From the IMG/VR virus record IMGVR_UViG_3300030060_004062, positions 1-54,473 of that record: a stretch of DNA of 54,473 nucleotides, one strand, 5' to 3'. Position numbers and translations under genes: made by a program. Positions 39,391 to 52,786 of the stretch are shown here, piece by piece (positions within the stretch are counted from its first letter, which is position 1; every line of letters starts with the position of its first letter). The DNA comes from a virus. The notes beneath the pieces were generated by a model. That model saw nothing but the letters and a program-made list of their open reading frames with translations, did not search any database and was not told the origin of the DNA.

Positions 39391-41184
39391 TCAATCAAAA
39401 GGATTCCACCAGCTATCTCCTTGACTTCCTGTGTTCAGGCCAATCTCAGAGGATGTAACTTTTGAGCCGGGAGCAGCAGCGACTTCAATTCGCCCCGACA
39501 TATTCATGTTGTTGTTAACTCTTGCGGCCTTTTGATCTGCGACACTTTTTGTCGCCTCGTCATCACCAAATCCAAAAAAGCTTTTCGCATCTGAAATGCC
39601 GCCAGAAAAAGTTTCTTTTATGCTTCCAAGATTAGAAGACACGCTTTCCAAAGCCTGCATCGCCCCGCCATTTACTAACGAATCCACTCCCTCAACCAGC
39701 ATTTTTACGTATTGCACTGCAGCCTTTAATGGAACAAGCATAATCTTTATTGCTGTTCCAATTTTATCTAGAGCCCACGCAAACCCGTCAAACGAATCTC
39801 CACCGTTTTCTACTACACCGAAAAGATCAAGGATTGGCGATATGGCCTTTCCGGCTTCGCTTGCTATTTCTTTGACCATTTGAATAACGGGATGACCTGT
39901 GTTCCACCAATAGACAAAACCCGCAGCAAGACCCGCAACGGCAGCGGCGATCAACCCAAACGGAGAAAGAAGGACAGACAGAGACATTGCCAAGGCACCA
40001 AGCCCCATAGCAAGAATAGGGATTATGGCGACAAGAGAAGCTATTGCCGCTCCGAACTTAATTAGGGCAGGATTGTTATTGATAAATTCTTTCATGACCT
40101 TTCCAGCCGCCACAAAGAATTTTGCCAAAACCACAACTACAGGCTTTATGACATCCCCAATTGCCTCAAATGTATTTACCGCAACGGCCCTCAAAATACT
40201 AAATACGGTGCTTGATCGACCAGCCCTATTTTCAAGCTCCCTCATCATAGAGTTTAGAGCACGATCACTAGCCGCCTGTTTCATTGTTTCTTCTAAAGTG
40301 TCAATTCGGTTGATGGCTTTTTCAATAAATCTAGCCGCTTCAGGCCCGAAAACTTTTTGGAGAACAGCACCCCTCTTCGATACGTCAATCTTTGCAAACT
40401 TTTCTAGTTGCTCTGTCAGAGCGCCAACCGGATCAGCCATAAGCTCCTTGATAAGCTTTGGGCTTCTCTTGAACTTGTTGAACATCATGTTTAGTCCAGA
40501 TGCAGCAAGTTCACTAGTTGTCTCTACTTGGTTCGCGAATGCAGCAAGACCAGAAACAACCTCTGGCGGAAACCGCATTGTCCCCATGGTGCCGCTTGTT
40601 CTCTCAATGATGTTGATCATGTCTGGGCCGTTGGCGGCAAAGCTATCCGCCAAGAAGTTAACCTGATCCATCAAGTCGCTGATGGCTGTTTGACTTAATC
40701 CAAGCTTTGCCCTAATAGAACCTAGCGCCCTACCCGCCTCGGAGTCAGCCATGTCGAAAGCTACAGCAGTACGCGCACCAAGCTTAACAAAATCATCAAG
40801 CTCCTCAAGAGGTATGCCCATCTTCAGACCCTCAAAGGCTTGCTGCAATAGACCTACTTTGTCTTTGCCAAGCTCTTCTGATAGAGCCTCCATAGACGAT
40901 TCCATTGCATTGAGCTGAGAATCAGTTAGATCACCTACGCGCACAAGGTCTGCAAGAGCATCTTCGACCGCAACCGACTGCTTAACGAACTTAGTAAGCG
41001 CAGCGCCCACAGCAGCGCCACCAACAGCACCGGCAAGATTCTGCATTTTATCGCCGGTTCTCTGTAGCCTCTCACCCATGGAAATAACCCCACGAGTGGC
41101 TTTTTTTACCTTGCGTTCAAATGCGTTAAGAGGCCCGGAAAACCTGTCAACTACCTGATAAATATACTCAATTGAGTTGCTCAT
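39391..41184 (-). CDS. tape measure protein
   Basis: The 597-residue protein has a long helical N-terminal part and hydrophobic stretches (about residues 350-420, AIASLVAIIPILAMGLGAL...). It follows the frameshifted chaperone pair. Its length suggests a tail around 90 nm, as an estimate from the usual 1.5 angstrom per residue. Confidence 0.85.
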   Translation of the reverse strand: MSNSIEYIYQVVDRFSGPLNAFERKVKKATRGVISMGERLQRTGDKMQNLAGAVGGAAVGAALTKFVKQSVAVEDALADLVRVGDLTDSQLNAMESSMEALSEELGKDKVGLLQQAFEGLKMGIPLEELDDFVKLGARTAVAFDMADSEAGRALGSIRAKLGLSQTAISDLMDQVNFLADSFAANGPDMINIIERTSGTMGTMRFPPEVVSGLAAFANQVETTSELAASGLNMMFNKFKRSPKLIKELMADPVGALTEQLEKFAKIDVSKRGAVLQKVFGPEAARFIEKAINRIDTLEETMKQAASDRALNSMMRELENRAGRSSTVFSILRAVAVNTFEAIGDVIKPVVVVLAKFFVAAGKVMKEFINNNPALIKFGAAIASLVAIIPILAMGLGALAMSLSVLLSPFGLIAAAVAGLAAGFVYWWNTGHPVIQMVKEIASEAGKAISPILDLFGVVENGGDSFDGFAWALDKIGTAIKIMLVPLKAAVQYVKMLVEGVDSLVNGGAMQALESVSSNLGSIKETFSGGISDAKSFFGFGDDEATKSVADQKAARVNNNMNMSGRIEVAAAPGSKVTSSEIGLNTGSQGDSWWNPFD

Positions 41185-41366
41185 TATTTCTTTTTCATCC
41201 GGGCTTCTTGATCACGTATTATTTTTGTCTGCCTATCTCTTATTACTTCAATTTGATAGACAGACATATAGTCAACTTCAGAGTAACTTAAAGCGCCTTC
41301 CGCTCTGTAGACTGTGTCATAGACGTATTCGATCCACTTTCGTCTAGAAAATCCAATCCGATAGTA
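41184..41366 (-). CDS. tail chaperone frameshift extension (gp41'-like)
   Basis: This frame has no good start and is entered by -1 frameshifting. In the zero frame GCA AAT TTT, the slippery heptamer A AAT TTT (41366-41372) allows a slip, giving a fusion of 158 plus 60 residues that ends EARMKKK. The extension ends where the tape measure starts, as in Mu and most siphoviruses/myoviruses. Confidence 0.75.
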   Translation of the reverse strand, partial: YYRIGFSRRKWIEYVYDTVYRAEGALSYSEVDYMSVYQIEVIRDRQTKIIRDQEARMKKK

Positions 41367-41839
41367 AAATTTGCACAATAGGCTACTGCCATACCCACCA
41401 TGTCTTTCGGGTTTAGTTCCTCAAACATCTCAGATGTCATTGGAACCTCACCTTCCACCAAGGCAAGAGGTGCATTCTTAAATGTCACCATTTTCTTGAA
41501 GTTATGAACGAAAGCAGAACGATCAACCGATGAAACCTTTAAGGCAACATCAATCATATCTTTCATATCTTCCGATTCAAGCTTGTGATCATCCTCTGTT
41601 CGATCAGTGAACTTTTTAACCTCTTCGCCGGTTTCTTCTTTTTGTTTTCTTTCTTCACTGACCTTGCGCATGTCGAAGAACGCCTTGGTAATGGCGCACT
41701 CAAGCTTATCCGCATACTCAAAATGTTTGCCGTTAAACTCAGAAAGCTCAACAAACTCAACTTCCCGAAAATCACCTTTTACCGGCATTTTAACGGGACG
41801 TTTAAGCGTATAGATCATTTTACCATCAATATGTGACAT
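41288..41839 (-). CDS. tail assembly chaperone, Mu gp41-like
   Basis: The 183-residue acidic protein (MSHIDGKMIYTLKRPVKMPVK...) has the usual FVELSEFNGKHFEYADKLECAITKAFF core. It holds the tape measure during tail assembly. A downstream -1 frame makes the longer variant. Confidence 0.85.
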   Translation of the reverse strand: MSHIDGKMIYTLKRPVKMPVKGDFREVEFVELSEFNGKHFEYADKLECAITKAFFDMRKVSEERKQKEETGEEVKKFTDRTEDDHKLESEDMKDMIDVALKVSSVDRSAFVHNFKKMVTFKNAPLALVEGEVPMTSEMFEELNPKDMVGMAVAYCANFTIGLDFLDESGSNTSMTQSTERKAL

Positions 41840-41864
41840 AGTGGTTTCCTGCCTTTATGTCTGA

Positions 41865-42251
41865 TTAGCCGATTTGAATCGGATTGCCTTTGAACTCAAG
41901 CGGAATATCACCGTCTGAAGTAAGGCTCATTTCTGGATCGTTCGAGAGGGACGCGGTAGACATGTTCATTTGAATTCCGCTATCCACATACTGGATTACC
42001 AATTCGCCCGGAGTAGATTTCCATGCGGCGATTTTTCCAGCAGAATCCGACGTGTTAGGCAGGGAAAAGTTAATTGCCCCCACCTTTGTCTCAGCATTTA
42101 CAGAGTGAACCGTTTCAATGCTGTCGCCGCCGCCAGATGTTGACCGAACGTTAGTTTCACCAAAACCACCAGTTACCATAAGGGTGTTGGGGATGATGTA
42201 AACAGTTTCGCCATTAACTCGGACGGAGCCGTTAGATAGTGCTTTTGACAT
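41865..42251 (-). CDS. tail tube protein, Mu gp40-like
   Basis: ATG 42251 (MSKALSNGSVRVNGETVYIIPN) is preceded by AGGTGA. The 128-residue beta-rich protein has VTGGFGETNVRSTSGGGDSIETVHS and KVGAINFSLPNTSD, typical of contractile tail tubes. Confidence 0.88.
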   Translation of the reverse strand: MSKALSNGSVRVNGETVYIIPNTLMVTGGFGETNVRSTSGGGDSIETVHSVNAETKVGAINFSLPNTSDSAGKIAAWKSTPGELVIQYVDSGIQMNMSTASLSNDPEMSLTSDGDIPLEFKGNPIQIG

Positions 42252-42262
42252 ACCCAATCACC

Positions 42263-43867
42263 TTACAGAGTAATAGTTGTTGAGCTTGACCTGATATCAA
42301 AATCAAGCGCCAAGTTGTAGTTAACGTCACGAATCTGAGTGACAATCGGAAGCGGCCCGTTAATCGCAACAGAGCCGGTTGCAAGCGTTACATCAATCGT
42401 TGTGTTGTCGCTGAAATACTTTACAGCAGCCTGACCAGCCTGAACTAGAACGTTTGCCGCAAGAACTTGGTAGATATCCAGAAGATCGGCACGAATTGAG
42501 TTTTCGTTTTCAATCGACCGACCCGGAACCAGATCACCTTGAGTCAAGCGTGATTGCGAGTAGTTAGACTTCAAAACGTTAAAGAAAATCTCACGGCAAA
42601 CCGAACCGGTGCGAACATAGTTCAGATACAAGAAGCTATCGTTTGCATTGCCAGCCGCATCAGTGGTGCGGGTAGTAACAACCGGACCCATGATCATCGT
42701 ATTCAGAGCGCGGTTAACACCAAACGTTGTAAAACCAGCGTTCTCAAGCTCAACCTGTTCAGTCGCGGTGTACAGGTTCGTTGGTGACGTTACCGGAGCA
42801 TTCGCAAGCGGGGTATTAAAGTACGGCAGGGAAGCCAAAGCTGGTCCACCAGTCGCATCATTCGGTGCATTTGATGCCGTGATACGATCCGCAATCTGCG
42901 ATCCAGTCGAAAGCCGCTTGTCATCAACCGACATAAAGTAGGTCAAAATCCAGTCAGCAGGCTGTAGTATTGCGGGGCCTTTATGCGTTGCGGTGTCAAG
43001 CTTGTTGTTGCCGCCTACAACCAATGACTGGTCGTTAAGCGATGCAACCTTGGACTTGGCATTTGCTACCGTTGCGCTGAATCCGTGGAAAACAACGCCA
43101 TCCATAATCTGATTGGAAGCGTTGAACCGTGCGCTGAAATAGTCAGTAGCGGTGTCAAGGTCAGAAGTCCAACCTTCAGGCCAGCTTACAGAGGTGTAGC
43201 GGATGCCTTCGATGACGTCAAACACACCGGTAAATGATGGATCAGTAGAACCACCGGCCCAACCTGTCAGCGTGGCAGTTACACCAGCAACAGAATTATC
43301 TACGTTCTCGTATTTCAGGCCGTAGGTGTTGCCTAGTGATCCGACATCATCAGCCGTTAGTGTTAGCGTTCCGGTAGCATTTGACGCAGTGAAAGGCACG
43401 TAATCAAGCGCATCGAATGCAGCATCAACAGCAGCCGCGATTTCCGTTGCCGTGTCGCCAGTCGTTACAGATACATCAACTTGGAACTGAGTCTGATCAA
43501 CTGCGGTGATACGCAAAGTGCCATCAGAAGTCGCAGTGCCAGAAAATGCAATTTCAGCGGTTGCCGCTACGCCTGAACCATTCGGATCAAGTGAAATGAC
43601 ATCAAGCTTCGGAATAACAACAGAATTGTCTTTGTTAACACCAAGGAACCAGTTATTGATTCGATGATACGCCTCATCCTCACCAAAAGCGGCGCGGACT
43701 TGGGCGCGTGTCATAAGGTGAACATCGGTAACGAGCGCACCAGATGTAGCAGAGCCACCCGTGCCCGTCTGGCATACGATAAGGCTCTTACGATCCTCAA
43801 ACGCATCTACCAGAGGTGCCTGGAGTAGCTGAATATTTCCGCGGGGATTACTTGAGGGTGAACCCAT
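42263..43867 (-). CDS. tail sheath protein, Mu gp39-like
   Basis: The 534-residue sheath has VVIPKLDVISLDPN, an inserted domain TATSDGTLRITAVDQTQFQV, the middle RIGDRI-like region (SQIADRITASNAPND), and the C-terminal LNYVRTGSVCREIFFNVLKSNYSQSRL and QAAVKYFSDNTTIDV typical of sheaths. It contracts to drive the tube through the envelope. Confidence 0.92.
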   Translation of the reverse strand: MGSPSSNPRGNIQLLQAPLVDAFEDRKSLIVCQTGTGGSATSGALVTDVHLMTRAQVRAAFGEDEAYHRINNWFLGVNKDNSVVIPKLDVISLDPNGSGVAATAEIAFSGTATSDGTLRITAVDQTQFQVDVSVTTGDTATEIAAAVDAAFDALDYVPFTASNATGTLTLTADDVGSLGNTYGLKYENVDNSVAGVTATLTGWAGGSTDPSFTGVFDVIEGIRYTSVSWPEGWTSDLDTATDYFSARFNASNQIMDGVVFHGFSATVANAKSKVASLNDQSLVVGGNNKLDTATHKGPAILQPADWILTYFMSVDDKRLSTGSQIADRITASNAPNDATGGPALASLPYFNTPLANAPVTSPTNLYTATEQVELENAGFTTFGVNRALNTMIMGPVVTTRTTDAAGNANDSFLYLNYVRTGSVCREIFFNVLKSNYSQSRLTQGDLVPGRSIENENSIRADLLDIYQVLAANVLVQAGQAAVKYFSDNTTIDVTLATGSVAINGPLPIVTQIRDVNYNLALDFDIRSSSTTITL

Positions 43868-44070
43868 TACGAATCAGCCTTCTTTTTAGTAGTTACAGAC
43901 TTAACAACTTCAACAGCGCCATCCATACCGGCATCCCGCAGGCGGTTGCGCCAATAGCGATCTAGCGGAACACCGTCTTTGTCCGCCTTTACCATGATTG
44001 TTGATCCGGGCTTTACACCGTTCAAAATCACGTCACTCTTGTTGACAAGAGTAATTGTGTTTTGCTTCAT
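43867..44070 (-). CDS. DUF2635 protein, Mu gp38-like
   Basis: I choose ATG 44070 (MKQNTITLVNKSDVILNGVKPGS), because the family starts here; the frame is open from 44160. The 67-residue product has PLDRYWRNRLRDAGMDGAVEVV. It precedes the sheath exactly as in Mu. Confidence 0.8.
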   Translation of the reverse strand: MKQNTITLVNKSDVILNGVKPGSTIMVKADKDGVPLDRYWRNRLRDAGMDGAVEVVKSVTTKKKADS

Positions 44071-44131
44071 TGATTTGTTCTCATATGCGGAGATCATTGC
44101 GCAATGTTCTCTTTTCGTTTCAATCCACAGC

Positions 44132-44160
44132 ATTATGAAGCACAAAAGAAGAACATTCAA
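44132..44160 (-). promoter_or_regulatory. tail-operon promoter
   Basis: TTGAAT (44155-44160), a 17-nt spacer and CATAAT (44132-44137). It starts the long tail operon. It lacks the shared dyad, so it probably belongs to a different expression class. Confidence 0.6.
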
Positions 44161-44188
44161 TAATTTGTTTGATTGTGTGATTTTTCTG

Positions 44189-44217
44189 TTGACAGGTTAC
44201 GTTTATTGCCGTATGTT
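44189..44217 (+). promoter_or_regulatory. plus-strand promoter with TTACG-N8-CGTA dyad
   Basis: TTGACA (44189-44194), 17-nt spacer and TATGTT (44212-44217), with TTACG-N8-CGTA at 44197-44213. It faces away from the tail operon, and a terminator follows 130 nt later. Confidence 0.75.
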
Positions 44218-44223
44218 TATGTC

Positions 44224-44378
44224 GGATAGAAAGTCGTGATAAACGTTCGTTTAAAGTTGGCATGGCAACTATACTGGTGATGTGTGTGACGCTGAGTTTT
44301 TCACGATAATTTCATACAGCTAATTACCAGACCAGAGATAGGCCCTCTTCGGAGGGTCTTTTCTTTTGGATGTAAATG
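44224..44378 (+). ncRNA. candidate orphan small RNA
   Basis: The promoter above and the terminator (GGCCCTC-TTCG-GAGGGTC then TTTTCTTTT, 44348-44378) define a ~155-nt RNA. No convincing ORF lies inside; the best is 15 codons without a ribosome binding site. It is on the strand opposite to all neighbouring genes, and lies upstream of the tail operon promoter. Confidence 0.55.
44348..44378 (+). terminator. terminator of the orphan plus-strand RNA
   Basis: GGCCCTC-TTCG-GAGGGTC forms a 7-bp stem with one G-U, followed by TTTTCTTTT. Confidence 0.85.
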
Positions 44379-44380
44379 TA

Positions 44381-44392
44381 ATGTTATAACAT
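44381..44392. promoter_or_regulatory. 12-bp perfect palindrome
   Basis: ATGTTATAACAT directly follows the terminator. It could be an operator. Chance cannot be excluded in AT-rich DNA. Confidence 0.35.
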
Positions 44393-44399
44393 AACACTT

Positions 44400-44879
44400 T
44401 TTGATTCAGATACTATTAACCGCCTTTTCTCCCTGCAATCTTAAAGAAATTACCGTTCTTTTTTGCAGTCTCAGACCACGAGAAGCCATAAGGCCGGATA
44501 CTTCGTTTCCCTTTTGCGCCAGTGTGACGCATCGCAAGGCTTACCTTCCTCACGAACTCCCATGTCCCTTAAGCGGATCGGACAAATCCTAGATAGATTA
44601 TTCCCCGTGGTCAGTGGGGTGGAACTCTACCTAGAAAGCAAAATCCCCCGGTGGTGCCGGTTTGCAGGTTCCCGTTGCTGGCAAGCAGAGCGGAATTTAA
44701 TTGTCATCTTGTTTAGCATCGCGACGACCAAACGATATGGGAAAGTTTTTATAGATAAAATGACGATACAAGTTGAAATTATAGATAATTCTGGTATCTT
44801 CATTTTTACAGACGCGGAAACAACCGTTCCAAAAACCGTGTCTGTCTGGCGGCACGATGTTGATAGCATCTGTCGCCGC
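44400..44879 (-). ncRNA. candidate structured RNA, second in this island
   Basis: No frame on either strand of this ~480-nt stretch resembles a known protein. On the minus strand it folds well: TAGGTAGA/TCTATCTA encloses CCCC/GGGG, and the loop GACCACG (44606-44612) can pair with CGTGGTC (44474-44480) as a pseudoknot. TTGCG/CGCAA and CTGCAA/TTGCAG hairpins follow. The outer helix keeps a G-U on the minus strand but would have an A-C mismatch on the plus strand, so minus is favoured. A promoter TTGATT (44909-44914), 17 nt, TATAAA (44886-44891) is suitably placed. It is not a class I can name. Confidence 0.4.
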
Positions 44880-44889
44880 TTTCTTTTTA
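44849..44889 (+). terminator. plus-strand terminator-like hairpin
   Basis: GCGGC/GCCGC with an inner GATG/CATC stem is followed by TTTCTTTTT on the plus strand. It overlaps the putative minus-strand promoter and the first stem of the structured RNA, so its role is ambiguous. Confidence 0.5.
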
Positions 44890-44919
44890 TAGGGTGTTTC
44901 TATCTGAAAATCAACCACG

Positions 44920-44956
44920 AAAAAAGGCAGCGCTTCGAACACTGCCTTTTACTTTT
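44920..44956. terminator. bidirectional terminator
   Basis: AAAAGGCAG and CTGCCTTTT pair around CGCTTCGAACA. The minus strand ends in TTTTTT and the plus strand in TTTTACTTTT. Confidence 0.8.
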
Positions 44957-44978
44957 AGGGTCGGTAATGATTCCAATC

Positions 44979-45043
44979 TAAATCAAAACGACCATCAATC
45001 TCCAATGACTTATATAAAGTACTTAATTTCCAACAAAGAATCA
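44979..45043 (-). other. short unassigned frame between two terminators
   Basis: On the minus strand a frame reads LILCWKLSTLYKSLEIDGRFDLDWNHYRP and stops just before the bidirectional terminator. It begins in the T-tract of the previous terminator with no ATG. It may be the 3' remnant of a gene. Confidence 0.3.
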
Positions 45044-45044
45044 A

Positions 45045-45076
45045 CAAAAAAAAAGCCCCGCTATTGCGAGGCTAAA
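45045..45076 (-). terminator. terminator overlapping the 45061 stop
   Basis: On the minus strand GCCTCGC-AATA-GCGGGGC is followed by nine T. The stop codon lies in the loop. Confidence 0.9.
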
Positions 45077-45258
45077 CGTCTTGCTATTGTTTCAAATGGC
45101 TCTGGATCGTGACCAGTTACCTTATACCACGTTTCGCTTGTCCAGTTATAGTTAGGCATTACAGACTTTACTACTCCGTAGAATGTTCCTTGTGCAAGCT
45201 TAACTGATACCTTATCTCCAACTTTAAATGATCGCATGGATTGGGTGGTTGTCATCAT
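45061..45258 (-). CDS. SH3/KOW-like small protein
   Basis: The 65-residue product has FKVGDKVSVKLAQGTFYGVVKSV, a small SH3-like barrel pattern. It starts in the upstream gene (ATG 45258 or 45255, or ATG 45237) and stops inside its terminator. Function unknown. Confidence 0.55.
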   Translation of the reverse strand: MMTTTQSMRSFKVGDKVSVKLAQGTFYGVVKSVMPNYNWTSETWYKVTGHDPEPFETIARRLASQ

Positions 45259-45430
45259 ACATATCCAGATTAACTGTCACTTCGTACATATCGAACTGAG
45301 CCATTTCATCGGCACGTTTTTTAATGATTTTTTCAAGGTGCGGCGGCAAAGTAGGTTCTTTAACGATAAAACCTTTTTTCTCAAGTTTCTTTTTATTTTT
45401 AAGGCTAACGATAATTGCTTTGGTGTTCAT
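45224..45430 (-). CDS. 68-residue basic hypothetical protein
   Basis: GAGGAG precedes ATG 45430, and a strong promoter lies upstream. The lysine-rich protein (MNTKAIIVSLKNKKKLEKKGF...) is unrecognised. Confidence 0.6.
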   Translation of the reverse strand: MNTKAIIVSLKNKKKLEKKGFIVKEPTLPPHLEKIIKKRADEMAQFDMYEVTVNLDMYDDNHPIHAII

Positions 45431-45459
45431 CTGTCTATCTCCTCTGTGTTGATAAGTAT

Positions 45460-45488
45460 GTTATACGACGTATGGCGAAACATGTCAA
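45460..45488 (-). promoter_or_regulatory. promoter with TTTCG-N8-CGTA dyad
   Basis: TTGACA (45483-45488), 17-nt spacer, TATAAC (45460-45465), with the dyad at 45464-45480. It forms a compact unit with the 45430 and 45258 genes and the terminator at 45045. Confidence 0.85.
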
Positions 45489-45501
45489 CAAGAAAATGCA
45501 T

Positions 45502-45530
45502 AAAAAAGACCGCCCATTTAGAGCGGCCTT
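45502..45530 (-). terminator. terminator of the tRNA-containing unit
   Basis: On the minus strand GGCCGCTC-TAAAT-GGGCGGTC is followed by TTTTTTA. Confidence 0.9.
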
Positions 45531-45536
45531 CTTGCA

Positions 45537-45749
45537 TTAGGCTTTCAGCTTTTCTTGAAGGATATCTAAGAGGCACAAAAGATCGTCAGCGGCTGTTTCG
45601 GCCTCCATCATATCCTCTAGTGCATCAAAAGACTTGTCGCTTTTTTGTTCAGCGTGAAGCGTTCTCAATTGATTTACAGCCTCCGCAATAGAATATGTCA
45701 GAGACTCGGTTTCATCAATTACTCGCTGGGTTATTTCAATCTGTTTCAT
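45537..45749 (-). CDS. 70-residue helical protein
   Basis: ATG 45749 starts MKQIEITQRVIDETESLTYSI; the whole protein is an acidic helix, possibly a coiled coil. It ends next to the terminator. Function unknown. Confidence 0.55.
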   Translation of the reverse strand: MKQIEITQRVIDETESLTYSIAEAVNQLRTLHAEQKSDKSFDALEDMMEAETAADDLLCLLDILQEKLKA

Positions 45750-45760
45750 CACACACAACC

Positions 45761-45997
45761 TCAAAAATGTTTGGCGTGATAAGAGTCAATAGTCTTTCCT
45801 GATTCGCTCATCACGAAAACAGAAAACGCCTCATATTCAAGAAATTCTCCCATATCTTCGTGCAGCACGAGGTTGATTTCACACAGTCCACCAGATGGAG
45901 TCTCAAAAGAAATTGTTCCATTTGGTGTTTTTAGAACGCTGCGTGCTTCCTGAACAAGCTCAAGATTTCCGCAGTGTTTCGTCTTTAGGTACATCAT
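45761..45997 (-). CDS. 78-residue hypothetical protein
   Basis: It follows the tRNA cluster by 27 nt. The protein (MMYLKTKHCGNLELVQEARSVLK...) is a mixed alpha/beta product of unknown role. Confidence 0.55.
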   Translation of the reverse strand: MMYLKTKHCGNLELVQEARSVLKTPNGTISFETPSGGLCEINLVLHEDMGEFLEYEAFSVFVMSESGKTIDSYHAKHF

Positions 45998-46024
45998 GTC
46001 TTTCTACTTTCTTTCTGTCTAAGT

Positions 46025-46098
46025 TGGAGCCACAGGCAGGAATAGAACCTACAAAACCTCACTACAAAAGAGGAGTGATACCATTTCACCACAGTGGC
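46025..46098 (-). tRNA. tRNA-Thr (TGT anticodon), slightly degenerate
   Basis: The 74-nt cloverleaf has acceptor GCCACTG/CTGTGGC (one T-T mismatch), D-arm GTGA/TCAC, anticodon arm CCTCT/TGAGG with loop TTTGTAG, T-arm GTAGG/CCTGC and encoded CCA. The discriminator is U73, which is more usual for tRNA-Gly; Thr normally has A73. It may be decaying or may have changed anticodon. Confidence 0.8.
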
Positions 46099-46100
46099 AT

Positions 46101-46176
46101 TGGTCTAGGTGGCAGGACTTGAACCTGCGGCCTCTGGTTTCCAAAACCAGAGCTCTACCAACTGAGCTACACCTAG
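46101..46176 (-). tRNA. tRNA-Pro (TGG anticodon)
   Basis: The 76-nt cloverleaf is perfect: acceptor CTAGGTG/CACCTAG, D-arm GCTC/GAGC, anticodon stem CTGGT/ACCAG with loop TTTGGAA, T-arm GCAGG/CCTGC and encoded CCA. Only 2 nt separate it from the neighbouring tRNAs. Confidence 0.93.
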
Positions 46177-46178
46177 TT

Positions 46179-46253
<75 letters not shown>

Positions 46254-46383
46254 ATAAATTAAATGGTGGGGCGCAACCAAATAGTCACCCCCACCCAAAA
46301 GCCGAATACAAAACAGGGTTGGAAACCTGAAATGTTTTGGTTGTTGTACCTATCATCGCAATGAAAGGCGAACTTCCCCGGCA

Positions 46384-46788
46384 CTATTTCGTCAATTCTT
46401 CCAGATCACCACGAAAGTCAATATATGGGATGATTGATTGCGGCTTGAAGGTTACACGGTAATGGTACTCGCTAACACTTGCAGAATCAACCTGCTCAGC
46501 AAATTATGTTACGTTGTCAGAAAGGCCAAGAAAGTTCTTCTTGTACTGACCGGGCCCAGTCTTGCAAGTCACGGTCAACTGACCTGATTTGTCGTAATTT
46601 CCAAGAGAGCACTTGCCCTCCATTACAAGCATATACTCGCTTGTGATCCCATTGTAGAACACAATGCGACGATCAATCTCAAAGTTGTCAGCAGCTTTTG
46701 ACAGGTTACTTGATGCAATGTCAGCGTCATTACACGCGGAAAGGCCAATAGCCACCAATGGAACAGCAAGAAATTTAAGTTTATTCAT
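46384..46788 (-). pseudogene. phage beta-sandwich lipoprotein gene with in-frame TAA
   Basis: ATG 46788 follows AAGGAG. The N-terminus MNKLKFLAVPLVAIGLSAC ends in a lipobox (LSAC), then DNFEIDRRIVFYNGITSEYML and GPGQYKKNFLGLSDNVT. TAA at 46504-46506 follows, but the same frame continues for 39 codons (FAEQVDSASVSEYHYRVTF... RGDLEELTK) to TAG. From memory the intact family reads LSDNVTYF here, so TAA seems to replace a Tyr codon. The family is often annotated as a phage beta-sandwich lipoprotein, probably for superinfection exclusion. It lies between the large RNA and the tRNAs. Confidence 0.75.
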
Positions 46789-46805
46789 CTCATTCTCCTT
46801 TATTT

Positions 46806-47479
46806 CGATCACCCCAACACCAAGCAGAATCTAGAATACTTGATGTCACCATGTTGATTCATGTGTTGCCCACTTATCAGGGGTGTATTTGAAGTGAGGC
46901 GTTCGGCCTTCCAAGGAGCGTCCTCTGTATTTTTACATACTCGACCACTATCCGAACCTGCTTTTTCGAGTGTTTCCACAGCCTCACAAAAGACAAGACC
47001 CCAAGGGCATGGCGTAGAGCAATCCGGTGCAACTCATACGGCAGGCTAATCCTTCGCCTGATCTTGTCATTTCTAAGGGCGGGTGATGTGGCGTGACCTT
47101 TGCCTATCTGGCTGGTTATTTCCTCACGCTGGACCGGGAATAAACATCTACCCTGCTTGCCAGCACATCAACCCACTACTTAACCCCCATGCACCACAAT
47201 CGGGAGGCATCGGCTGGAACTGTGGAGCTTAATTCTGGCTATGGGATTAACCAGTCAACACCAGCCTGAAACTTAATTCCGCTACGTTACATCACGGCTA
47301 CCACGCATTTCCTTTTATATAGCGGGAACTATGTGCTCCGTGGCCTCCCCCGCTAGATGTTGGATGGTCGCTAACTCCACCTACCTTCGCATTGCCTGAC
47401 TTTCGCCGCATCGGTTTCCCTCTTAAGGGTCTGGAAGGCCATTCACCGTCTACATGAGCTTACATGCTTCAACATCTAA
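46806..47479 (-). ncRNA. large structured RNA, GOLLD/ROOL-like
   Basis: About 670 nt without a plausible ORF on either strand carry many perfect long-range helices in minus-strand RNA: TAGATGTTG (47470-47478)/47354-47362; 47349-47355/47320-47326; GGGTTGATGTG (47164-47174)/47081-47090; 47062-47068/46992-46998; 46981-46987/46894-46900; and 46952-46957/46901-46906, crossed by 46966-46971/46939-46944 as a pseudoknot. A CAGGC/GCCTG hairpin lies at 47042-47060. It has its own promoter and is followed by a lipoprotein gene and three tRNAs. Size, ornate structure and tRNA context match the giant phage RNAs GOLLD and ROOL. The RNA call is strong; the exact class is not certain. Confidence 0.75.
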
Positions 47480-47484
47480 ACCAA

Positions 47485-47513
47485 CTTTTACGCCATCAAA
47501 CGTTATGCGTCAA
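47485..47513 (-). promoter_or_regulatory. promoter of the large RNA, with AACG-N8-CGTAA dyad
   Basis: TTGACG (47508-47513), 17-nt spacer, TAAAAG (47485-47490), with TAACG-N8-CGTAA at 47488-47505. Transcription would start within a few bases of the first RNA helix. Confidence 0.75.
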
Positions 47514-47590
47514 GAAGTTTTTTGCGTTACTTATAGGTAAAGTTTTGTAGGTAATTCGTGTTTTCTATCAATAATTTACTTGCAGGTAAA

Positions 47591-48697
47591 CTATGGCAGA
47601 GGTTCATCGTCTAGGTCGATTGACGAATCAAGTTCTGACATATCATCGCCGTTCAGGTCCCAATTGGCCACTACATTACGGAAAGCCACATCAGGCTGCA
47701 GTTGCCACCCGTTGCCCTCAAAGGTAATAACTGAAGGTAGCGCAAAGTCGTATACAATCGTGCTGTAGGCATTGTTTCGAATTCCGTTGCCGAACCCATT
47801 AGATACAGGAACGAACTTCTGTTGTGTGTCCGGGTCGGTGAACTCGAAACCAAACAGCGTACTATACAGGGAACGGTAAATTTCAGTGTAGCCTAGTGTC
47901 TTAGCGTCAAAACCTGATGCATCATTCGCGGTCGGAAAAAAAACAACAATCGAAAAGTTCTGGATTAAAATCTGTTTGCCCAAATTCCCCGGATAAAAAG
48001 AGGCCACCGAATCGTTCATAGTGTGGCGGTCTTTTGAAACATCCACGTCAGTAGGGATAACGAACGCCCAAAGAGTGTTTGCGTCCGCTTGTTCCGTATA
48101 CATAGACTGAGCGTGGTCAATTGTTGCAACCCCGGTAACCCTGACAGACCGAACAAGCTCAATGCTGGCAATATCACCAGTCGGGAAAGAAGGATAACCG
48201 CTTACATCAATCGTGAACGTGTTTGCATCTGGAACTGTTGCAACTGTGTGAATGCCAACAAGGCCAGATCGGCCCTCAAGCAAAACACCTGAACCAGTTG
48301 GAAGTGTGTCAATCCCCGATGGAAACTCAATCTCAAACGTGCGACGATTCGGAACCGCAACTATAGTGTGTATTGTGTTCCATACCGATTCGTTGAAACC
48401 ATCAATATCTAGCGTCGTGGAATCAAGTGCTTGCTGTGGAGCTGTAAGATCATGATCGAAGTTTGTTGTAAATCTTACCGTTCCATCTCCATTATCAACC
48501 GCGCTTGCAATGCTATTCTCAAACTTGCCGGATGAAATGACAACCTTTTTACCAACAGTCAATCCGTGGGCGGTAGACGAAACTGTCACAGTTGATCCGT
48601 CTGACGTTGCCGTTCCAGTGAGTGTCACGCTAAACTTGTCAGTGAAAGCAGGCAAATAGCTGCGCATGTGATTCACTATATCATTTGGACTGATCAT
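47591..48697 (-). CDS. tail terminator-like protein with inserted beta domains
   Basis: The 368-residue protein starts MISPNDIVNHMRSYLPAFTDKF and ends with a part like tail terminators (LWAFVIPTDVDVSKDRHT... LGKQILIQNFSIVVFFPT). In between are two or three beta modules with STAHGLTVGKKVVISSG-type motifs, the same kind as in the J protein. It takes the place of Mu gp37. The terminator role is inferred from position between neck and sheath genes. Confidence 0.65.
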   Translation of the reverse strand: MISPNDIVNHMRSYLPAFTDKFSVTLTGTATSDGSTVTVSSTAHGLTVGKKVVISSGKFENSIASAVDNGDGTVRFTTNFDHDLTAPQQALDSTTLDIDGFNESVWNTIHTIVAVPNRRTFEIEFPSGIDTLPTGSGVLLEGRSGLVGIHTVATVPDANTFTIDVSGYPSFPTGDIASIELVRSVRVTGVATIDHAQSMYTEQADANTLWAFVIPTDVDVSKDRHTMNDSVASFYPGNLGKQILIQNFSIVVFFPTANDASGFDAKTLGYTEIYRSLYSTLFGFEFTDPDTQQKFVPVSNGFGNGIRNNAYSTIVYDFALPSVITFEGNGWQLQPDVAFRNVVANWDLNGDDMSELDSSIDLDDEPLP

Positions 48698-49125
48698 ACT
48701 TTTGCCCGCTCTTTAAATCTTTGGTAAAATAGGTCTATTGTGTCGCCAACAGTATTGTTGATCGCCAGAATCAGTGTGGGACGTGCGCGCATTCTACTGG
48801 TGCCAGTCTCAACAAATTCTCCGTACTCCGCACTGAAACCAACTCTCATTGTATGCCAGCTTGCAACCTTACCATTGTAAGACCTCAGCAAACGTCCAGT
48901 CTCAGAAGCAAATGGTTCACCCGCTGCCGATGCCTGATGCTCACGACCACGACGCAAATAAACCCGTCCTGTCTTACGCTGCTTAGTTGTTAAGTTCTCC
49001 GTCTCACGCCCAACAATATCAACCGTGTCAATCAAGGCTTCACGCATACCTTGTTTATGATATTCCACATGTTTAGGAATCTCAATTAGAACCGATTTTG
49101 TCTTTTTGGTTGTCGTGATTTTCAT
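48694..49125 (-). CDS. neck/tail completion protein, HK97 gp10-like
   Basis: The 143-residue product has the gp10 pattern VGFSAEYGEFVETGTSRMRARPTLI near the C-terminus and a basic N-terminus. It overlaps the tail terminator gene by 4 nt. No ribosome binding site precedes ATG 49125, while a promoter places the RNA start at or next to the ATG, so a leaderless mRNA is possible. Confidence 0.8.
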   Translation of the reverse strand: MKITTTKKTKSVLIEIPKHVEYHKQGMREALIDTVDIVGRETENLTTKQRKTGRVYLRRGREHQASAAGEPFASETGRLLRSYNGKVASWHTMRVGFSAEYGEFVETGTSRMRARPTLILAINNTVGDTIDLFYQRFKERAKV

Positions 49126-49131
49126 AGGTCA

Positions 49132-49160
49132 AATATACGACATCAAAAAAAGTTTGTCAT
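49132..49160 (-). promoter_or_regulatory. promoter for neck and tail terminator genes
   Basis: ATGACA (49155-49160), 17-nt spacer, TATATT (49132-49137). The right dyad half (CGTA) is present and the left one is lost. The predicted start is at the ATG of the 49125 gene. Confidence 0.6.
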
Positions 49161-49175
49161 TTGGTGTTTTTGTTG

Positions 49176-49204
49176 TTGGCGCGTTACGACGGCTGTCGTA
49201 TAAA
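49176..49204 (+). promoter_or_regulatory. promoter with TTACG-N8-CGTA dyad
   Basis: TTGGCG (49176-49181), 17-nt spacer, TATAAA (49199-49204), with the dyad at 49184-49200. It drives the isolated plus-strand gene at 49235. Confidence 0.75.
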
Positions 49205-49234
49205 AATGACATCAACCAACCGAGGAGATGAACA

Positions 49235-49543
49235 ATGTCTAAAATTGCAGTCCGCATGAATAAAGGCTTCCATGTTGAGTTCGACAATGGACTTACCTTT
49301 AGCGTTCAGTTTGGAAGTGGTAACTATTGCGATAACCGCAATGAGGAATTCACCACAGATGGATACAAAATGTCGTCCAATGCTGAAATTGCAGTCTGGG
49401 ACAAAGAAGGAAACTTCTGCAAATTGTCTGAATACGATGACGTTGCTGGATATATTCCTGTTGACGATGTTTTTGACCACATTCAAAATGTGAGGAAAAT
49501 GCCATCAGGAACCAACGGCAATAACTGGAACTACAAAGCTTGA
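49235..49543 (+). CDS. 102-residue moron protein
   Basis: The gene lies alone on the plus strand between minus-strand neck genes, with its own promoter, GAGGAG and terminator. The beta-rich acidic protein (MSKIAVRMNKGFHVEFDNGLT...) has no family I recognise. Its placement is that of a moron, expressed independently of the late operon. Confidence 0.75.
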   Translation: MSKIAVRMNKGFHVEFDNGLTFSVQFGSGNYCDNRNEEFTTDGYKMSSNAEIAVWDKEGNFCKLSEYDDVAGYIPVDDVFDHIQNVRKMPSGTNGNNWNYKA

Positions 49544-49549
49544 TACTTT

Positions 49550-49576
49550 CCCCGGCTTCGGTCGGGGTTTTCTTTT
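49550..49576 (+). terminator. terminator of the 49235 gene
   Basis: CCCCGGC-TTCG-GTCGGGG is followed by TTTTCTTTT on the plus strand. It overlaps the end of the head closure gene. Confidence 0.9.
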
Positions 49577-49973
49577 AAGAACTAGACCCATCTACATCAT
49601 CATCACCACGATCAGAGCATTGCACGATCAGATAACGGTTATCTTCACCGTCATTTGTGACACGCAGCGCTCTGAATCGTTTTCCGTTGTAGTCTATGAA
49701 GTGGTTTCCGTCTTCTGGAAGAACGATAGAAGAATTGAATCTTACATAGAACAGGTGGGTTGCACGGTCATCAATCGCGATACCCGCAAACCGCTTAGTT
49801 CCTTCTACCGTTTCGATAGCTGACCATAGGCGGTAAAGTTCAACAAACGTCTCTACGCCAGACGGGTTGTCAAAATCTGGAACTAAATCACGTCGTTGCA
49901 CTGAAATAGGGTGACGTAAATCACCGGTGCAAATTTCCAGTTTTGGGAATCTCTTCTTTCGGCACGTTGCCAT
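49575..49973 (-). CDS. head closure protein, SPP1 gp16-like
   Basis: The 132-residue protein has CTGDLRHPISVQRRDLVPDF and YRLWSAIETVEGTKRF, the usual pattern of the head-tail joining stopper. It has two close cysteines at each end. It overlaps the adaptor gene by 1 nt. Confidence 0.8.
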   Translation of the reverse strand: MATCRKKRFPKLEICTGDLRHPISVQRRDLVPDFDNPSGVETFVELYRLWSAIETVEGTKRFAGIAIDDRATHLFYVRFNSSIVLPEDGNHFIDYNGKRFRALRVTNDGEDNRYLIVQCSDRGDDDVDGSSS

Positions 49974-50599
49974 TATGCGAACACTTCCAAGATTCGATAT
50001 GGTGCAAGCAGAGACCTAGCCGCTCCACCGACTGAACCCTTTGACTCAGCACACTCGCAATCGCCACGATCCTCAAATAGTGCGTTCGACATCATCATTA
50101 TGGCTATTTTAATCGGTTGCGGAACAGCAGAAGCATCACCATAACCAGCAACAAACGTTACGCGAATAGGACGTGGCAACTCCGTTCCATGTAGCCACCA
50201 GCTTGAATCTGGAAACGAATTAGGAAACAGCAAGCGGGGATATGTGATATAATCCTTTAGCTTGTAATCCGTGAAAGCGTCATAAGACTCAGTTGATTCA
50301 TTCCACGTTTCAACCGAAGTGATGGACTGTAATGGAGATTTGTTAATCTGGATGAATGGACCTTGCTCAAGTCGAGTGCAAAGTAATGTCTGAAAGTCAC
50401 CACGCGCTGTACGCTCAACAAACCAACGTCCGGTGTATGCCTCGGCCAAGTCTGTTGCTGTCTGCAAATACGCTGCAATAAGCGCATCTTCATCGTCAAA
50501 GGAAATCTTGGCAAATTCCTTGAACTCAGAAACAGTAACCGGCAACTCAGCAGGAGCTACCGTTACAGTGTAATAGTCATTTTTGAAGACAGCGGACAT
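49973..50599 (-). CDS. head-tail adaptor, HK97 gp6-like
   Basis: The 208-residue protein starts with VTVAPAELPVTVSEFKEFAKI and has DDEDALIAAYLQTATDLAEAYTGRWFV and IKIAIMMMSNALFEDRGD, typical of the gp6 connector that binds the portal. Confidence 0.85.
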   Translation of the reverse strand: MSAVFKNDYYTVTVAPAELPVTVSEFKEFAKISFDDEDALIAAYLQTATDLAEAYTGRWFVERTARGDFQTLLCTRLEQGPFIQINKSPLQSITSVETWNESTESYDAFTDYKLKDYITYPRLLFPNSFPDSSWWLHGTELPRPIRVTFVAGYGDASAVPQPIKIAIMMMSNALFEDRGDCECAESKGSVGGAARSLLAPYRILEVFA

Positions 50600-50638
50600 T
50601 GAAACCCTATCTATATATCACGCAACCCACCTTTAAGG

Positions 50639-51010
50639 TTACGCATTTTTAAAGTCGGCCTTGAAAGCTGCTTTCATTTTACCAAGAGACTTGCGACGAT
50701 CAAGCTTAACGCCAAATTCAGCCGCATATTCGTCTAGCGTCTCTTTATCATCCATTGAGTACACAAATTCCCAATCAGGTCCATTTTCCGGCTCTTTATC
50801 TTGTTCTTGTTTTTCGACAACTTCAGCTTTTGTGTCTTCAATTTCGACATCAATAGATGGTTTTTCGACATCCGCAAATTCAGCCCATGCAGTCGCGCAG
50901 ATTTGATCAGCCCATTTCTGAGTTAGATCATCTTCGCCCTCTTTAACCATTCTAACATGAACGCCCTCGAACGCAAATAGACCTGACTTGAGGATATTGA
51001 CTTTAACCAT
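50639..51010 (-). CDS. 123-residue head-associated hypothetical protein
   Basis: The protein has a short beta N-terminus, an acidic linker (EIEDTKAEVVEKQEQDKEPEN) and a C-terminal helical domain (LDEYAAEFGVKLDRRKSLGKM) similar to small HeH/SAP-like domains. Its position between decoration and adaptor genes suggests a head role. Confidence 0.6.
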   Translation of the reverse strand: MVKVNILKSGLFAFEGVHVRMVKEGEDDLTQKWADQICATAWAEFADVEKPSIDVEIEDTKAEVVEKQEQDKEPENGPDWEFVYSMDDKETLDEYAAEFGVKLDRRKSLGKMKAAFKADFKNA

Positions 51011-51031
51011 AATTTACTCCGAAAGAAGGTA

Positions 51032-51051
51032 GGGAGGCCCGAAAGCCTCCC
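51032..51051 (-). terminator. partial terminator or attenuator after the decoration gene
   Basis: GGGAGGC/GCCTCCC forms a perfect stem, but only TACCTTC follows on the minus strand. It could reduce transcription of downstream neck genes relative to capsid. Confidence 0.5.
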
Positions 51052-51059
51052 GTGCTAGA

Positions 51060-51482
51060 TTATTCAGGCAGAACTTCGCCGTTCAACATGCACGAAACAT
51101 TGATGGTTGCACCAGTCGTGGTGCCAGTCGAAACAATGTTAGGACGCACATAACGCTTGGTGCTGTGAACACCGGCTTTAAAGTAGGAGTCACCATCTGC
51201 GGTAGCAGCGGTTACACCAGTGTCAACAGCATCAGAACCGCTAACAACGACGATCTTTTCAGAGCCAACCGTAGTACCGTCGGAAAGACCGGAGTCATCA
51301 CCTTCAGTAAAGGTCAGCTTGTAAGTGCCATCGGTATATGCGCTTGCGGCAATGAAGAAAGTCACGCCAAGGTCAGCATCTTTAGTGTCAAAGATGAAAC
51401 CGTTAGTGGTGGTATCAGTGGCAATGTCGCCCTCAAAAGCGAGGAGAAGATTGCCGTGAGTAACCATTTCGCGTACAGCCAT
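51060..51482 (-). CDS. head decoration-like protein
   Basis: The 140-residue, beta-rich protein (MAVREMVTHGNLLLAFEGDI...) ends RPNIVSTGTTTGATINVSCML, similar in form to Bbp16-type capsid cement proteins. It lies directly after the major capsid gene with an 11-nt gap, the usual place for decoration proteins. Confidence 0.7.
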   Translation of the reverse strand: MAVREMVTHGNLLLAFEGDIATDTTTNGFIFDTKDADLGVTFFIAASAYTDGTYKLTFTEGDDSGLSDGTTVGSEKIVVVSGSDAVDTGVTAATADGDSYFKAGVHSTKRYVRPNIVSTGTTTGATINVSCMLNGEVLPE

Positions 51483-51493
51483 TTTAAAACTCC

Positions 51494-52786
51494 TTAAGCC
51501 GCAATTTTCAGAATTTTACCGGCTTCGTAGTTCGTAACCGCACCGCCGACACGTTTAGTGGTGTAATAACGAACATACGGTTTAGCGGTATAAGGATCAC
51601 GCAGAACGCGAATGCCGAGACGGTCTACAACGGTATAGAACTCTTCGAAGTCCGCAACAACCATTGCAAGCGCATTGGATGCTTTTACAGGCATGTCTTC
51701 CATGAACACAACATCCTTGCCAAGCAGCATTTTAGTGCCGCCTTCCATAAGGATACGCGGGTCAAGAAGGTATGCGCCATCGGAACTTTTAAGCTGCATA
51801 ACATCGGTAAACGTTGCACGTTTCATGCCGAATGTTGCGTTCGCCTGATAATCTTCGATCAGCGAGTTGCCAAGCTCAATGATGTCATCAGCATCGAAGT
51901 CGCCAGAGGTACCAGAGGTAATCTGCTCAACTGCATTACGCTCGTAAACACCAGCAGACGACCAAGCCGCATACGACAGGAAGCCTTTAGGTTTCTGAGA
52001 ACCATCACCAGCAACAAAAGAGGTGTTCTCTTTGCGACCAATCTGCGACGAAACCTTACGGGACAGCCAGCCTTCGATATCAAAACCAGCGTCATCAAGC
52101 ATTTTCTGCGTAGCGCGAGGCTGTGCATATACTTCATGTACCGGAATCTTGATAAGGCCAACCTGCGGGGTGTTGGTGTCCGGGCGAGACTGTACTTCAC
52201 CAACCCAACCCGAATCAGACTCATCGTCATCAAGGATAAGTTCGTAAACATCCGAAGTCGTGGTCACAACGTTTGCAACCTGACGAAGCGGAGAGGTTTC
52301 GAAAATACGCTCGCTGATCTGGTTAGAACGGTCAGTGGTAACGAAATAACCACCATCCGGGCCAGATGCAGCAACCATGTCCTTAACCTGACGATCAACT
52401 TCACGATCATCGGCGCCAAACAGGTTTTTCTCAGCGTATGCCTTGTAAGCGCGTTCTACGTGTTCCTCATCAACAAGAACACCTTTGCGCAGGTAACGTG
52501 CAACAGCGTGTTTAAACTCTGGATCACCGGCATCCTCGCCAGCGTCACCGCGAGCAATTTTACCTTCGAGGAATGCAACCTTCTGCTCAAGTTCTTTAGC
52601 AGCAGCTTTTTCTTCTGCACGTTCTTTGTTTACGGCGTCGATACCATCAGCGGCATCTTTAGCCATTTTTTCGAGCTTTTCATTGTCAAGCCCGTCTACT
52701 TTGCCCTTAACTTCATCAAGAGCAGACTGAAACGCAGTTACGGAATCGTAAATACCCTTCAGTTCAGTTTTGATTTCTTCGCTCAT
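51494..52786 (-). CDS. major capsid protein, HK97 gp5-like
   Basis: The 430-residue protein has an N-terminal charged coiled coil (about residues 1-100), the delta/scaffold domain removed by the prohead protease, then the HK97 fold with PDGGYFVTTDRSNQISERIFETSPLRQVANVV, DTNTPQVGLIKIPVHEVYAQPRATQKMLDDAGFDIE and a C-terminal KPYVRYYTTKRVGGAVTNYEAGKIL. Confidence 0.95.
   Translation of the reverse strand: MSEEIKTELKGIYDSVTAFQSALDEVKGKVDGLDNEKLEKMAKDAADGIDAVNKERAEEKAAAKELEQKVAFLEGKIARGDAGEDAGDPEFKHAVARYLRKGVLVDEEHVERAYKAYAEKNLFGADDREVDRQVKDMVAASGPDGGYFVTTDRSNQISERIFETSPLRQVANVVTTTSDVYELILDDDESDSGWVGEVQSRPDTNTPQVGLIKIPVHEVYAQPRATQKMLDDAGFDIEGWLSRKVSSQIGRKENTSFVAGDGSQKPKGFLSYAAWSSAGVYERNAVEQITSGTSGDFDADDIIELGNSLIEDYQANATFGMKRATFTDVMQLKSSDGAYLLDPRILMEGGTKMLLGKDVVFMEDMPVKASNALAMVVADFEEFYTVVDRLGIRVLRDPYTAKPYVRYYTTKRVGGAVTNYEAGKILKIAA

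Follow-up and report, generated by a model that had tools for sequence, protein, structure and literature searches.

Large phage RNAs encoded close to tRNA genes can reach very high levels and are thought to scaffold, cage or sequester tRNAs or ribosomes; to our knowledge, GOLLD and ROOL are the only ones among them that have models. A stretch of about 670 nt without open reading frames (ORFs), lying near three tRNA genes in a tailed-phage genome, raises the question of whether it encodes another such RNA, and whether that RNA would belong to either family. The genome is virus record IMGVR_UViG_3300030060_004062, analysed here over its entire 54,473 bases (the window) and recognised as a tailed phage by its gene content, including portal, terminase, head protease, major head protein, sheath and baseplate hub proteins. 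Our preferred reading, to which we assign a probability of about 0.5, is that the stretch encodes a large non-coding RNA outside all described families, which the phage carries as tRNA-associated cargo.

A gap without coding signal

Neighbouring genes in the window mostly abut or overlap, as seen in a whole-genome survey of gaps, and the largest gap is at 46786-47590 (the survey ignores a spurious 62-aa ORF there). These approximately 800 nt are non-coding. The longest ORF is 62 aa and others of 49 aa upwards occur; the period-3 power is 1.1, compared with a median of 4.7 and a 5th percentile of 1.76 for genes. Neither Pfam nor PHROG matched any of the six frames of the gap (with stops written as X), and nothing was matched when its three minus-strand frames were searched against phages with tblastn. 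The stretch itself occupies most of the gap:

46806-47479, minus strand: candidate large non-coding RNA, ORF-free, with neither a period-3 signal nor a protein family

Each of its minus-strand frames contains 12-15 stops, its purine content is 0.557, and stops are commoner on the sense strand. The original prediction of some 670 nt devoid of coding potential is therefore borne out. With neither periodicity nor a protein match in any of the frames, the gap cannot be recognised as a gene or the remnant of one, and the idea that the stretch is a decayed gene was dropped after the six-frame, tblastn and period-3 checks yielded no remnant. An unrecognised coding region made of short or recoded ORFs could draw on the ORFs of 49-62 aa, but is highly improbable given the same negative results and the density of stops in the minus-strand frames.

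A probably acquired block with tRNA genes

The gap is part of a larger segment with the following features:

44161-47590, no strand assigned: cargo block of 3.4 kb between a 368-aa gene and the gp38-like and sheath genes, missing from seven relatives
46384-46785, minus strand: VG64-type gene (PF25682 / phrog_478), by family match
46179-46253, minus strand: tRNA-Met (CAT), by tRNA prediction
46101-46176, minus strand: tRNA-Pro (TGG), by tRNA prediction
46025-46098, minus strand: tRNA-Thr (TGT), by tRNA prediction
45503-45533, minus strand: intrinsic terminator-like hairpin inside the block, from a terminator scan
45054-45073, minus strand: intrinsic terminator-like hairpin 3′ of the minus-strand cargo genes, from a terminator scan

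In addition to the ORF-free stretch, the VG64 gene and the three tRNA genes, the block contains small ORFs, which lie downstream of the tRNA genes on the minus strand together with terminator-like hairpins. In the seven relatives compared (L003, L004/L028, L026, L027, L029, L030/L033 and L032) only 1-21 nt separate the 368-aa gene from the gp38-like gene, behind which comes the sheath gene, with identities to the window of 43-56% for the 368-aa protein and 53-64% for the sheath; in L031 the 368-aa and gp38-like genes adjoin or overlap, and no upstream start was located. No tRNA genes were found in the fragments of the sheath-bearing relatives, nor any stretch-like RNA or Rfam match. As the seven relatives lack the block, the stretch, the VG64 gene and the tRNAs appear from this comparison to be acquired cargo, presumably by gain. 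The location of this block is a new observation of the present analysis, and the junction of the 368-aa and gp38-like genes (44161-47590), nearly empty in the relatives, may be a hot spot for cargo.

The original prediction had placed the RNA next to three tRNAs and between a tail terminator and a gp38-like gene. All three tRNA genes are present (46025-46253, minus strand), but about 550 nt away and with the VG64 gene in between. As implied there, the tail sheath gene comes immediately after the gp38-like gene, but the latter has no family match, and the supposed tail terminator gene on the 5′ side matched neither Pfam nor PHROG.

The window shares 100% identity with two further contigs from different samples, one covering 40317-47755 and the other 47590-51805; only the former contains the stretch, which is unchanged. 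An in-frame TAA interrupts the VG64 gene at 46504-46506 (minus strand), and the frame continues beyond it, still matching PF25682 to its end. The same TAA is present in the second contig, making a sequencing error unlikely. Given this stop, decay may be under way in part of the block. Among the matches listed, VG64-type genes from phages infecting Rhizobium, Paenibacillus, Mycobacterium and Streptomyces are 65-72% identical in DNA, a high value for hosts so far apart; the family bears the label recombination directionality factor, yet a search of the window genome for a tyrosine integrase (PF00589) found none.

A second stretch in the block, of approximately 550 nt (44370-44920), also has no period-3 signal and no family match, suggesting that filler may be tolerated there. 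This and the in-frame stop in the adjoining VG64 gene keep alive the reading in which the ORF-free stretch is neutral or decayed cargo DNA – either what is left of a gene or intergenic filler that arrived together with the tRNA block – and has no function as RNA. Its shuffle-like structure statistics, described below, and the lack of any conservation seen beyond the identical contig are likewise as expected of such DNA, whereas the absence of a protein remnant in six frames and of residual periodicity is not, and for a genome as compact as this one, some 800 nt of filler would be out of the ordinary. We consider this reading possible, though unlikely.

Comparison with known large phage RNAs

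Rfam was searched at gathering and at permissive thresholds. The ROOL model (RF03087) did not match the stretch at E<=10, and as a positive control ROOL was recovered in L. salivarius pMP118 (L053) with 130 bits and E=1e-29; the GOLLD model (RF02032), which describes the conserved 3′ region, also gave no match at E<=10, with no GOLLD control genome above the cut-off. No other Rfam family, including group I and II introns, was found in the stretch, and outside it there was only a chance-level match to Spy490483c (E 9.7). Membership in GOLLD or ROOL, as originally predicted, is rejected at the sensitivity of Rfam. The GOLLD/ROOL-like setting is real – about 700 nt, ORF-free, in a phage and near tRNAs – and it is what a strongly diverged member of either family, at ~670 nt, would share; with neither model matching and the ROOL control working, we give such divergence almost no credence.

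The likeness to ROOL extends to a similar length, to the absence of ORFs, to a frequent location near phage tRNAs, to a purine-rich sense strand (0.552 in ROOL and 0.557 in the stretch) with an excess of stops, and to a weak single-sequence minimum free energy (MFE) signal; the stretch differs in having no covariance-model match. ROOL is an RNA-only octameric cage whose architecture of multiple helices and pseudoknots is supported by covariation. GOLLD is likewise a large phage RNA near tRNAs (PMC12286853), but the stretch lacks a match to its model and has no tRNA inside it; a further trait of GOLLD is its accumulation during lytic growth. By analogy, the stretch may possibly work as GOLLD and ROOL do.

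Two further systems are large phage RNAs that are likewise unclassified. Phage ICP1 expresses an unclassified lncRNA of ~800 nt that is its most abundant transcript, with RNA-seq support (PMC7567579):

NC_015157 (L024:15098-16108), minus strand: ICP1 large RNA, in an ORF-free gap

The ICP1 RNA resembles the candidate in its ORF-free gap, in having no Rfam family (its best Rfam match is below the gathering score), in its purine content of 0.552 and in a similar pattern of stops. It differs in having a clear U-tract hairpin as well as RNA-seq support, and ICP1 has no tRNAs. Only chance-level matches were seen when the ICP1 RNA was compared with the window by blastn. Phage K has two large lncRNAs near tRNA genes, shown by RNA-seq (PMC9241854), which are alike in size and location, their sequences having been compared through the phage-collection search only. 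ICP1 and phage K set a pattern in which a compact phage genome contains 0.6-1 kb that is free of ORFs and shows no coding signal, and the stretch has this pattern too.

Searches for homologues of the stretch in phage and plasmid records, 2.9 million viral contigs and 85 thousand species genomes returned only the identical contig, at a sensitivity limited by the need of pattern scans for exact stretches of 16-24 nt and by the failure of blastn to detect strongly diverged RNA. The viral contigs were scanned with back-translated stretches of three minus-strand frames and one plus-strand frame and with one exact 16-mer, whose 17 other matches were unrelated; two scans of the species genomes gave none. 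Strong blastn matches among phages stem from the VG64 gene and not from the candidate RNA, and no similar stretch turned up in the VG64-bearing loci examined. A covariance model of a 195-nt 3′ domain matched only itself, with the ICP1 and ROOL loci included in the search. The sequences at 44676 and 47165 share an inverted similarity of 27 nt, which was dismissed as chance (E 2.4). The sole homologue found is 100% identical and so carries no substitutions in which covariation could show.

Folding, transcript ends and a possible role

The stretch can be drawn as a fold with an 11-bp helix, two closed domains (98 and 97 nt) and a 3′ hairpin, preceded by a promoter-like sequence:

47485-47513, minus strand: weak promoter-like TTGACG-17-TAAAAG, 9/12 matches, with a -10 lacking the final T
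47431-47441, minus strand: 5′ arm of the strongest long-range helix, 11 bp, pairing with 46904-46914 at a mean probability of 0.91
46904-46914, minus strand: 3′ arm of the same helix, pairing with 47431-47441
47079-47176, minus strand: predicted domain with a closing helix of 12 bp, z -1.7
46982-47078, minus strand: predicted domain with a closing helix of 17 bp and two interruptions, z -2.7
46815-46848, minus strand: 3′-end hairpin of 11-12 bp, shortly before the VG64 start

The strongest helix is UGGCCUUCCAG/UUGGAAGGCCG, with its 11-bp arms 537 nt apart, and the z values of the two domains apply to boundaries picked from the fold itself, after folding. Relative to dinucleotide shuffles, the MFE of the stretch has a z of -0.24 (20 shuffles) or -0.39 to -1.08 (40 shuffles), and both the entropy and the count of certain long-range pairs are near the shuffle means. 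An equally strong best helix occurs in 24% of shuffles, and as many strong helices in 20%; 120-nt windows along the minus strand of the stretch average z +0.42, against a genome mean of -0.40. The long-range helices claimed originally can be drawn, but none goes beyond shuffle levels, and the description of the RNA as ornate is unproven, as no structural statistic exceeds the shuffles and only identical copies were found. Folding of the stretch cannot yet be told from chance. The genuine ROOL and ICP1 RNAs score more strongly, at -1.84 and -1.74 respectively, yet values of only about -1.8 leave the energy test with little power for such RNAs, so that it neither supports nor excludes structure here; single-sequence folding statistics cannot establish RNAs of this kind.

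The promoter that the stretch was proposed to own, TTGACG-17-TAAAAG, is visible by eye but is weak and below threshold; a consensus scan of the 1.45-kb region, in which 2.2 chance sites are expected, listed no minus-strand site at 47485-47513. A search for a terminator at the 3′ end of the ~670 nt found none, the hairpin at 46815-46848 having no U-run and therefore not being a terminator, and a discrete 670-nt RNA would need processing. The absence of a terminator between the stretch and VG64 is compatible with the stretch serving as a lengthy untranslated leader, or as a regulatory region, of a transcript of VG64 and the cargo, in which the strong local hairpin directly before VG64 controls translation and no separate RNA is made. 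Phages seldom have leaders as long as 670 nt, and most of the other VG64 genes examined (loci L007-L020) have ORFs directly upstream, making this improbable. Unclassified cargo RNA is thus ranked as most probable, ahead of functionless cargo DNA and, behind that, a long leader.

The reading as a large non-coding RNA without a described family is favoured because the stretch lies in the largest ORF-free gap of the genome, shows neither periodicity nor a protein match, was seemingly acquired with the tRNAs and is unchanged in the second contig; because its size and setting match those of the ICP1 transcript (PMC7567579), the phage K lncRNAs (PMC9241854) and GOLLD and ROOL (PMC12286853); and because its purine content and sense-strand stops are as in ROOL and the ICP1 RNA. 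Against it stand the shuffle-level structure, the weak promoter, the missing 3′ terminator, the lack of a diverged homologue, the in-frame stop in VG64 and the second stretch without coding signal (44370-44920). We infer that the stretch would be transcribed leftward during infection, starting at the weak promoter upstream or as read-through from the late operon, in a cargo transcript ending at 45503-45533 or 45054-45073, from which the RNA would be freed by nucleolytic processing. By analogy with other large phage RNAs, a stable folded RNA could then act in trans as a scaffold, as a cage or by sequestering tRNAs or ribosomes. More tentatively still, it could belong to an undescribed class of giant ornate phage RNAs, with no relation to GOLLD, ROOL or OLE, whose members move from phage to phage as cargo alongside tRNA genes and build a large RNA-only assembly during infection. 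A further candidate, unrelated in sequence and carried in a removable block, would point to an accessory role, and relatives that live without the block offer a natural contrast of presence and absence.

Terminator-like sites number eight in the block region, compared with 3.5 expected from shuffles. At 44189-44359, in divergent orientation to the sheath genes, the plus strand has a promoter-like TTGACA-17-TATGTT (10/12) followed by a strong terminator-like hairpin (44340-44359); together they delimit a candidate small RNA of ~130 nt.
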